In this document: positions 816 through 2,775 of the stretch, one piece after another
Layout: each line of letters opens with the position of its first letter
How positions within the stretch are numbered: the stretch's first letter is position 1
From: a virus
Length of the DNA stretch: 64,000 nt
Virus record (IMG/VR): IMGVR_UViG_3300012924_000007
Coordinates: 1 to 64,000 of that record
Reading direction: 5' to 3' (one strand)
Notes under the pieces: model-generated
The model's database searches: none
Seen by the model: only the letters and a program-made list of their open reading frames with translations
Told to the model about the DNA's origin: nothing
Made by a program: the position numbers and the translations under genes

Positions 816-965
816 ATGAGAACAATAAACTATATTTTAGAATTTTATTACAATAGCAATTATCACTGTAAAGCAGTAGAAACCGAAAAAGAGGCTATTT
901 TATGGGTTCCCTTGCTTGAAAAAATGGGTTATTATAATATAACCTTTAGATTTCTAAAAGACTAG
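816..965 (+). CDS. hypothetical small protein, 49 aa
   Basis: Short ORF (MRTINYILEFYYN...RFLKD) with an ATG at 816 and a TAG at 963-965. It has the standard local leader AAATCTAATTATT before its ATG. It is rich in Tyr and contains an EKEAI segment followed by WVPLLEKMGYY, typical of compact phage proteins. Its stop codon lies inside the 5' arm of helix I of the hammerhead-like RNA (960-1011), so translation termination and RNA folding could interfere. Function unknown. Confidence 0.55.
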   Translation: MRTINYILEFYYNSNYHCKAVETEKEAILWVPLLEKMGYYNITFRFLKD

Positions 966-1011
966 CCGATGAGCTGTAAGTCAGCGAAACACGGGAAACC
1001 GTGTCCTAGTC
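960..1011 (+). ncRNA. hammerhead-ribozyme-like self-cleaving RNA (type I layout)
   Basis: All three hammerhead helices and the core can be drawn. Helix I is GACTAG 960-965 with CTAGTC 1006-1011. The core is CCGATGA 966-972. Helix II is GCTG 973-976 with CAGC 982-985 (loop TAAGT). GAA 986-988 follows. Helix III is ACACGG 989-994 with CCGTGT 999-1004, closed by a GAAA tetraloop. The cleavable residue is C1005, so cleavage would fall between 1005 and 1006. The only departure from the canonical CUGAUGA...GAAA...NUH core is C instead of U at core position 4, which would be expected to slow cleavage. Helices II and III are closed and helix I is open, which is the type I arrangement. I infer that cleavage would create the 5' end of the long structured RNA that follows. 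Confidence 0.7.
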
Positions 1012-1746
1012 AACACTGGTAAAAGATCAGTTAATCGTGACAAATAAATGACAAAAATTATTAGGTTTAGAATAGTATTAGTTTTACCTTAGTATCGTGA
1101 TCCTGAAACAGACAATGTACCTTACTAAGTACAGGAACAGAAACCGGATCAAACGTGTGAAAGGTTGAAATCACTGAATTGTGGTTAACGTCGCTGAAAT
1201 TACAGTAAGCGCCCAAACTATGTGCATCATGGTCTGAATGTTACCAGTAAGTAACGAAGGCAAGTATCTGAGCCTATGTAACAAGGATACCCGAAGCAGT
1301 AAATTGCATTATATCACGTTCGGAAAGGTAGCAGGGGATAGACTCCCTGTGACAAGGCACACATTCAACGTGTCTTAATAATACAGTTTATTACATTCGG
1401 GTATATTATGTATTTTTACATCTGATAACGCAAAGATACCGTTATATCCGGATTATTCCAAATAAGATATTACGACAATTATATAGGTATGGAGGTTTAG
1501 CGATCCATCAAATGTAAGTTATTGACGACTGTTACAGCCTAAATAATTGTCTATTAATGCACCATTCTCAGAGGTATAAACAATCCTCCTGATTAATAGA
1601 CAGCCTCAACTTAAAATGTTAGAAAGGGATATTAATCAGCCTCCCAAGGGTGAGCTATGTAATAGGTGCAACAAGTATTGCTCAATTCCTTTATCCAGGA
1701 GCAGGAGCCTATTACATAGTGTGCAGAGGGATTATATTATTAATAT
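1006..1746 (+). ncRNA. large structured non-coding RNA (about 740 nt), unidentified class
   Basis: No convincing ORF covers this stretch, but it is full of perfect complementary arms. TGATCC/GGATCA (1098-1103, 1146-1151) encloses TGTAC/GTACA (1116-1120, 1129-1133). Others are GTTAC/GTAAC (1240-1244, 1251-1255), a 9-bp long-range stem ATACCCGAA/TTCGGGTAT (1287-1295, 1396-1404) enclosing CAGGG/CCCTG (1332-1336, 1345-1349) and AAGGCAC/GTGTCTT (1354-1360, 1370-1376), and ATAACG/CGTTAT (1425-1430, 1440-1445). An 11-bp stem pairs 1548-1558 with 1592-1602. A 12-bp stem CTATGTAATAGG/CCTATTACATAG (1655-1666, 1708-1719) sits inside ATATTAAT/ATTAATAT (1629-1636, 1739-1746). Size and phage setting recall giant phage RNAs such as GOLLD or ROOL, but I cannot assign it to either. 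The 5' boundary is the predicted hammerhead cleavage site. Confidence 0.7.
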
Positions 1747-2064: not shown

Positions 2065-2224
2065 ACATGAGTGATGCCTGGCATTACCCGTAGGACGAGG
2101 AGCCTAATGTAATAGATATATTGATGATCGTATTATTAATTTCGATTGCTATTTTACAATTATTAAATTAACGGGGGGAGTATTGGGAAAAAAGAAAGAT
2201 CAAATTACAGAAAACTAGCACCAA

Positions 2225-2512
2225 ATGAAAAATGGTCAATTAATATTTGTTATATCAGGCTCAGGCGATGGAATCTTAGGGGTTGTAGGAAATCTAAAAA
2301 GTGTTTGGAAAGCAGCTTGTTCTTATCATAATACTAAAAAAAGTTCATGGTCAAGGAAAGAATTCGAAGAGAAGGAATATTTTTCCTATAAAAAGTTGTG
2401 TGAAGCGTTTAGAGATAGACAAATCTATAGAACATATAGTATCAAGGCGCCTGAATTAAATGATGAAGGAATGTTAGACATAGTAGTATTGGAATATGGC
2501 CGTTTGTTTTAA
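2225..2512 (+). CDS. hypothetical protein, 95 aa
   Basis: Unrecognised. The N-terminus (LIFVISGSGDGILGVVGN) is hydrophobic and Gly-rich like a beta strand-loop, and the middle is basic and aromatic. No catalytic motif was identified. Confidence 0.6.
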   Translation: MKNGQLIFVISGSGDGILGVVGNLKSVWKAACSYHNTKKSSWSRKEFEEKEYFSYKKLCEAFRDRQIYRTYSIKAPELNDEGMLDIVVLEYGRLF

Positions 2513-2550
2513 TTTTATTGCCTTCATTATTAATATTATAAAAAATTCTT

Positions 2551-2775
2551 ATGAACAAGAAACAATTTGAAGCGTTCTTTAAATCTGAAATAGAACCCAA
2601 TATCCCAAAAGATGACAAACCAGCGTTACGGCAAGCATGGAATGAGACTATTGATTCATATATCAAAGATGGAAGGCTGATGAAAAAAGCAGGGGATTGG
2701 GCACATCCTAAAAGGTTTTATCGACCTACCGTAGTTAACTTTAACGAATGGGACGATACACAAAATAAACTATAA
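2551..2775 (+). CDS. hypothetical protein, 74 aa
   Basis: Small charged protein, helical in its first half (KKQFEAFFKSEIEPNIPKDD) and ending in an aromatic strand. Family not recognised. It sits in the early small-gene run. Confidence 0.6.
   Translation: MNKKQFEAFFKSEIEPNIPKDDKPALRQAWNETIDSYIKDGRLMKKAGDWAHPKRFYRPTVVNFNEWDDTQNKL

Follow-up and report, generated by a model that had tools for sequence, protein, structure and literature searches.

A copy of a new pseudoknotted RNA family of uncultivated phages lies downstream of a candidate hammerhead ribozyme

A non-coding interval behind a candidate hammerhead

What does a phage make from about 740 nt of DNA that hold no recognizable gene? The window analysed here covers bases 1-64000 of a linear phage record in IMG/VR, 82.6 kb in length, and the question concerns its positions 1006-1746. 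The polymerase encoded in the window is ~31% identical to Crassvirales polymerases and several proteins of the contig match Cellulophaga phage phi17:2 at 25-50%, which points to a divergent phage, probably of Bacteroidota. Scans of IMG/VR with neighbouring proteins and with the single polymerase sequence found no close kin of the contig. The original prediction held that the interval lacks a credible ORF, and this was borne out: the longest stop-free run in six frames is 57 codons, and 857-1761 is the contig's largest stretch without ORFs of at least 60 aa. The flanking ORFs (816-965 and 1762-2064) are both complete and separate and no Rfam model for a group I or group II intron matched, so that an intron was rejected. 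The contig's tRNAs lie 40 kb away. Blastn with the locus as query gave only chance matches in named phages and plasmids; no credible homologue was found among polymerase-based kin, of which fifty matched the locus by blastn at chance level only and were without a hammerhead HH9 match above threshold.

At the 5' edge of the interval we found a candidate type I hammerhead ribozyme (960-1011, plus strand), as had been predicted. Its three stems (stem I, 960-965/1006-1011, 6 bp; stem II, 973-976/982-985, 4 bp; stem III, 989-994/999-1004, 6 bp) surround a conserved core made up of CCGATGA (966-972), GAA (986-988) and C17 (1005). Every position of the strict core CUGANGA...GAAA...NUH is matched except U4, which is C, and changes in the hammerhead core usually slow cleavage (PMC3088659). 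The stem score was equalled in none of 150 shuffled 64-kb windows, and the fold z of 960-1011 was -3.9. The Rfam HH9 model gave 18.9 bits against a threshold of 52 bits; this sub-threshold match was the sole Rfam signal at the locus. Patterns taken from the 3' edge of the ribozyme had no match in IMG/VR. The predicted cut (1005/1006) agrees with the proposed 5' end at 1006, and release of a downstream RNA from this site is plausible.

To what extent the interval is folded was judged against shuffled sequence. The folding energy of 1006-1746 was -180.6 kcal/mol compared with -160.8 kcal/mol (z -2.9; reached in 1/200 shuffles), and the local excess was restricted to the ribozyme, 1276-1425 and 1576-1725. 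The minimum-energy fold contained 24 helices of at least 5 bp versus 21.0 ± 2.3 in shuffles, 28/200 of which reach 24, and 6 helices of at least 8 bp versus 4.2 ± 1.7. Of the claim that at least ten perfect helices including a 9-bp long-range stem occur here, the helices themselves stand: the 9-bp helix at 1287-1295/1396-1404 and a 14-bp helix at 1654-1667/1707-1720 in the free fold both have pairing probabilities > 0.95. Their number, in contrast, is near chance, and the helix count was rejected as evidence of structure.

A conserved three-way junction with a pseudoknot

The conserved part of the interval was first seen as words that window positions 1554-1735 have in common with non-coding gaps of genomes related through their polymerases (G007 and G012). 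The family consensus is 5'-UUAA-UGCAC-CAU(U/AA)-CUCAC-UUCCCAAG-GGUGAG-CAGUUGUAAUA...UAUUACAACUG-A-GUGCA-GAGGGA-3'. P1 (UGCAC/GUGCA), P2 (CUCAC/GUGAG) and P3 meet in a three-way junction, and a pseudoknot links UCCC of the P2 loop to GGGA directly 3' of P1. A long form carries two further helices, P2a (GUGG/CCAC) and P2b (CUGAUUA/UAAUCAG), inserted in the P2 loop. The unpaired bases CAY, UUCCCAAG and A are also conserved.

Absence of covariation among homologues had been set beforehand as the refuting outcome; instead, covariation strongly supported the fold of 1554-1735. In an alignment of 82 copies, which was fitted to the model and aligns some long-form copies wrongly in P1/P2, compensatory double changes were present at 23 of the 25 pairs (118 cells), a result that 0/500 shuffles reached; pairing was 94%, compared with at most 59% when slid. 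A plain MAFFT alignment of 18 copies, for its part, had seven pairs with a double change (again 0/500 shuffles). Because the pattern of the first search held the 5' strand of P1 constant, variation in this helix was judged on copies outside that pattern, which showed the variant types UGCGU/ACGCA, UGCAU/AUGCA and UGCGC/GCGCA. In the set anchored on the 3' end, an exact complement of the P1 3' strand lay upstream in 68 of the 82 copies with a recognizable P3, among them 6 of the 8 copies with a variant P1, and in no copy did the other common P1 type stand in place of the complement. P2 occurs in about a dozen compensated types. Taken together, comparison of the copies shows a conserved RNA fold, with a three-way junction and a pseudoknot.

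The window carries a long-form copy at 1554-1735 on the plus strand. Model R1, for which 18 copies from outside the window were used, matches 1554-1741 with 45.4 bits (E 4.8e-9 in 1.37 Mb). All six helices of the copy pair: P1 (1558-1562/1721-1725), P2 (1567-1570/1651-1654), P2a (1571-1574/1585-1588), P2b (1589-1598/1630-1639), P3 (1655-1666/1708-1719) and the pseudoknot (1642-1645/1728-1731). Although eight of the 11 pairs in P3 depart from the consensus, the helix is fully paired, and P2a is GAGG/CCUC where other copies have GUGG/CCAC, GUAG/CUAC or GCAG/CUGC. These results show that 1554-1735 is a member of the family. The nested 8-bp and 12-bp domain that had been noticed at the end of the interval proved to be P3 and the pseudoknot helix. 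A hairpin of 9 + 5 bp (1474-1551, plus strand) abuts the 5' side of the element. We also noted a perfect 10-bp helix at 1549-1558/1593-1602 (GTCTATTAAT/ATTAATAGAC) that competes with P2b and with the upstream hairpin, a possible alternative fold.

The element lies ~550 bases downstream of the hammerhead, so that the order is hammerhead, ~540 nt, element. The stretch in between (1012-1553, plus strand) is moderately structured. No homologue of 900-1553 was found in the phage DNA searched, two 18-mers from 1200-1340 had no match in IMG/VR, and the homologues carry the 3' element only, most of them without an adjoining hammerhead. A single 740-nt RNA is therefore unproven: the 3' 180 nt of the predicted giant RNA are conserved, whereas one conserved molecule of 740 nt did not emerge. 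Its length, phage origin, low folding energy, the ribozyme at its 5' edge and a 3' part that is a real conserved RNA would suit a GOLLD/ROOL-like giant RNA spanning 1006-1746. However, covariance models of GOLLD, ROOL and OLE had no match at the gathering threshold or even at E 10 (cmscan), the conserved unit measures just ~100-300 nt, 1012-1553 is conserved in nothing found, and the contig's tRNAs are far off. We rejected membership in these three classes and consider a giant RNA of this type quite improbable. The original interpretation is thus partly supported: the interval does contain a structured RNA of no Rfam family, and the proposed kinship with GOLLD/ROOL was not upheld.

Distribution and genomic setting of the family

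A pattern scan of IMG/VR returned at least 119 stretches, with the full element in about half of the first eighty loci. A second scan, which used an anchor at the 3' end only, found the family again, and the model matched 56 of the 59 new loci searched. The family size, more than 100 IMG/VR contigs, is a lower bound. The family is absent from Rfam 15 and, by blastn, from 50,697 named phage records; plasmids gave no match to the element when the long form was the query, and GTDB genomes gave one exact match, in a Lake Lanier MAG contig. We set the RNA family as new against Rfam 15, named phage records and open-access papers, and a description elsewhere is possible. Only 3 of 21 element-bearing records had a match to the window polymerase, so that the element spans diverse phages. 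In 38 of the 40 records searched whole there were one to three copies, arranged in tandem units of one to three; nearly all of these records hold them together at a single place, which argues for gene-like behaviour and against a dispersed repeat. The presence of a strongly covarying, pseudoknotted family in over 100 phage contigs suggests that uncultivated phages commonly carry an RNA gene that has gone unstudied, and the family consensus makes immediate searching possible.

The genes that follow the copies fell into 34 groups among 36, so with no conserved downstream gene a riboswitch or leader of one gene was rejected. More generally, the element could act in cis, its knotted fold stabilizing or regulating the mRNA that follows (by an exonuclease block or by control of transcription or translation) while the hammerhead merely trims the mRNA 5' end. 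An ORF of at least 40 aa starts within 160 nt of 36/57 copies, mostly co-oriented (in the window, the gene at 1762), many loci have an ORF start 35-80 nt after the element, as for a leader, and hammerheads have been described close to the start of phage genes, as with the HF1/HF2 helicase (PMC3088659). However, these genes are unrelated, their spacing varies from 13 to 149 nt, 21 copies are without such an ORF, and tandem copies and copies far from genes exist. We regard action in cis as possible, and as the less probable account. On the other side of the element, a predicted hairpin ends at most 10 nt from its 5' side in 50/57 copies, and 24 upstream stretches had a fold z below -2 versus 12/55 downstream.

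Linkage to tRNA genes was rejected, as tRNAs lay within 2.5 kb in only 9/55 loci. Several tRNA-related features were seen in passing. Matches to the tRNA model of 107-158 nt in L155 (14926-15032 and 15988-16119, minus strand), L212 (7860-7972) and L200 (10332-10489) suggest tRNA genes with inserts or odd arms. L364 encodes a phage tmRNA (7798-8271, plus strand), followed at once by a tRNA gene. In Cellulophaga phage phi17:2 (L009, 41179-42499; phage positions 91179-92499), a 1.3-kb region nearly devoid of annotated genes follows a large tRNA array; it holds possible split tRNA-like sequences and has no match to the new element.

Ribozymes stand near the element in a minority of records. Hatchet ribozymes over the Rfam threshold were present in 3 of 50 records, each in an RNA-rich island and in the orientation of the element, which lies ~1 kb further downstream (L237, 3088-3239, minus strand; L322, 5635-5767, plus strand; L327, 6387-6553, plus strand), with small ORFs between hatchet and element. 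Canonical type I hammerheads, both on the plus strand, follow a copy by 2.1 kb in L335 (4052-4112) and by about 4 nt in L381 (2736-2796). Both hammerheads are followed by ~300 nt of RNA-like sequence common to the two records (AAAGGATACATCAGCAA...), behind which lies a gene for a DUF2828/DUF7788 (phrog_850) RNA-binding protein, an arrangement that may be a Ro60/Y-RNA-like unit released by the ribozyme. A general Ro60-like partner of the element was rejected, since DUF2828 occurred in only 3 of the 37 records checked, the window contig not among them, and TROVE in none. Given the varied ribozyme positions in these records, the order in the window is one of several arrangements, and the link between ribozyme and element is suggestive, not systematic.

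Another reading is that the element itself is where transcripts of phage RNA islands are divided into units, either as a new ribozyme that cleaves itself or as an RNase processing site. The compact pseudoknotted junction with its conserved unpaired bases, the tandem copies and the other ribozymes in the same islands would fit, but no known ribozyme family matches and the conserved bases do not form the pattern of a known active site; we consider this reading improbable.

GIY-YIG endonuclease ORFs are lodged at the new element in L155 (18841-19374, minus strand), where the stop codon overlaps the conserved AAGGGUGAGC, and in L381 (~2100-2630, plus strand). Such an ORF inside the element in G012 and the homologous ORF just before the element core in L381 would speak for a mobile or recombination element acting at the DNA level, whose folding would matter in single-stranded DNA. 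Insertion was seen at two loci only and without target duplication, however, and the strand bias and about one locus per record also argue against it. This explanation is very improbable.

A proposed function and known relatives in form

As the most likely reading, with a probability of roughly 0.45, we propose that the locus makes a processed, stable, non-coding RNA of the phage that acts in trans. The hammerhead would cleave a longer phage transcript at 1005/1006. The downstream product would carry the compact three-way junction, in which the pseudoknot ties the P2 loop to the nucleotides that directly follow P1. Together, the junction and the base of P3, which is conserved in sequence, may form a fixed platform, probably bound by protein, that displays the variable P3 arm, and this platform may protect the RNA from exonucleases. 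The product would then act in trans as an RNA gene and not as the leader of one particular gene. Recurring ribozyme processing of element loci is suggested because of the hatchets in three records and the L381 hammerhead next to a copy. The covariation (23/25 pairs), the match in the window (E 4.8e-9), the single locus in 38/40 records, the unrelated downstream genes and an orientation that mostly agrees with that of the flanking genes (46/54 downstream) argue for a processed RNA; the U4 change to C, the restriction of ribozymes to a minority of copies, the ORFs between hatchet and element, and the ORF starts 35-80 nt after many copies argue against it. A bolder extension, which we think rather unlikely, is that uncultivated phages hold RNA islands in which hammerheads or hatchets release stable knotted RNAs of a new class, which have an interchangeable P3 arm and act on the host during infection; 1006 to ~1740 would be one such RNA here. 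The ribozyme neighbourhood suggests a testable job for phage ribozymes, the release of stable RNAs.

Like the type I hammerheads of phages and prophages (PMC3088659; RF02275, HH9), the window candidate is intergenic in a phage and has three stems, GAAA, A15.1-U16.1, C17, C3/G8 and the remaining core. It differs from them in the C at U4 and in its score under the Rfam threshold, and unlike known examples it is followed by non-coding sequence with a conserved RNA element at the far end. With GOLLD, ROOL and OLE (PMC12286853), large or elaborate RNAs of bacteria and phages, the locus shares its lack of genes, and some copies of the new element share a position near tRNAs (9/55); the element has no sequence or structure match to them, and its conserved unit of ~100-300 nt contains a single junction and a single pseudoknot. 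The hatchet ribozyme (RF02678), which lies upstream of the element in three records, was not found in the window, where a hammerhead is present instead. Viral exonuclease-resistant RNAs, whose ring-like pseudoknot halts a 5'-3' exonuclease, contain a three-way junction with a hairpin loop that is paired to the sequence directly downstream of the closing stem. The new element has the same kind of junction and loop pairing, a similarity of topology only: its sequence is unrelated, and its pseudoknot is formed by the first hairpin (P2) and not by the second.
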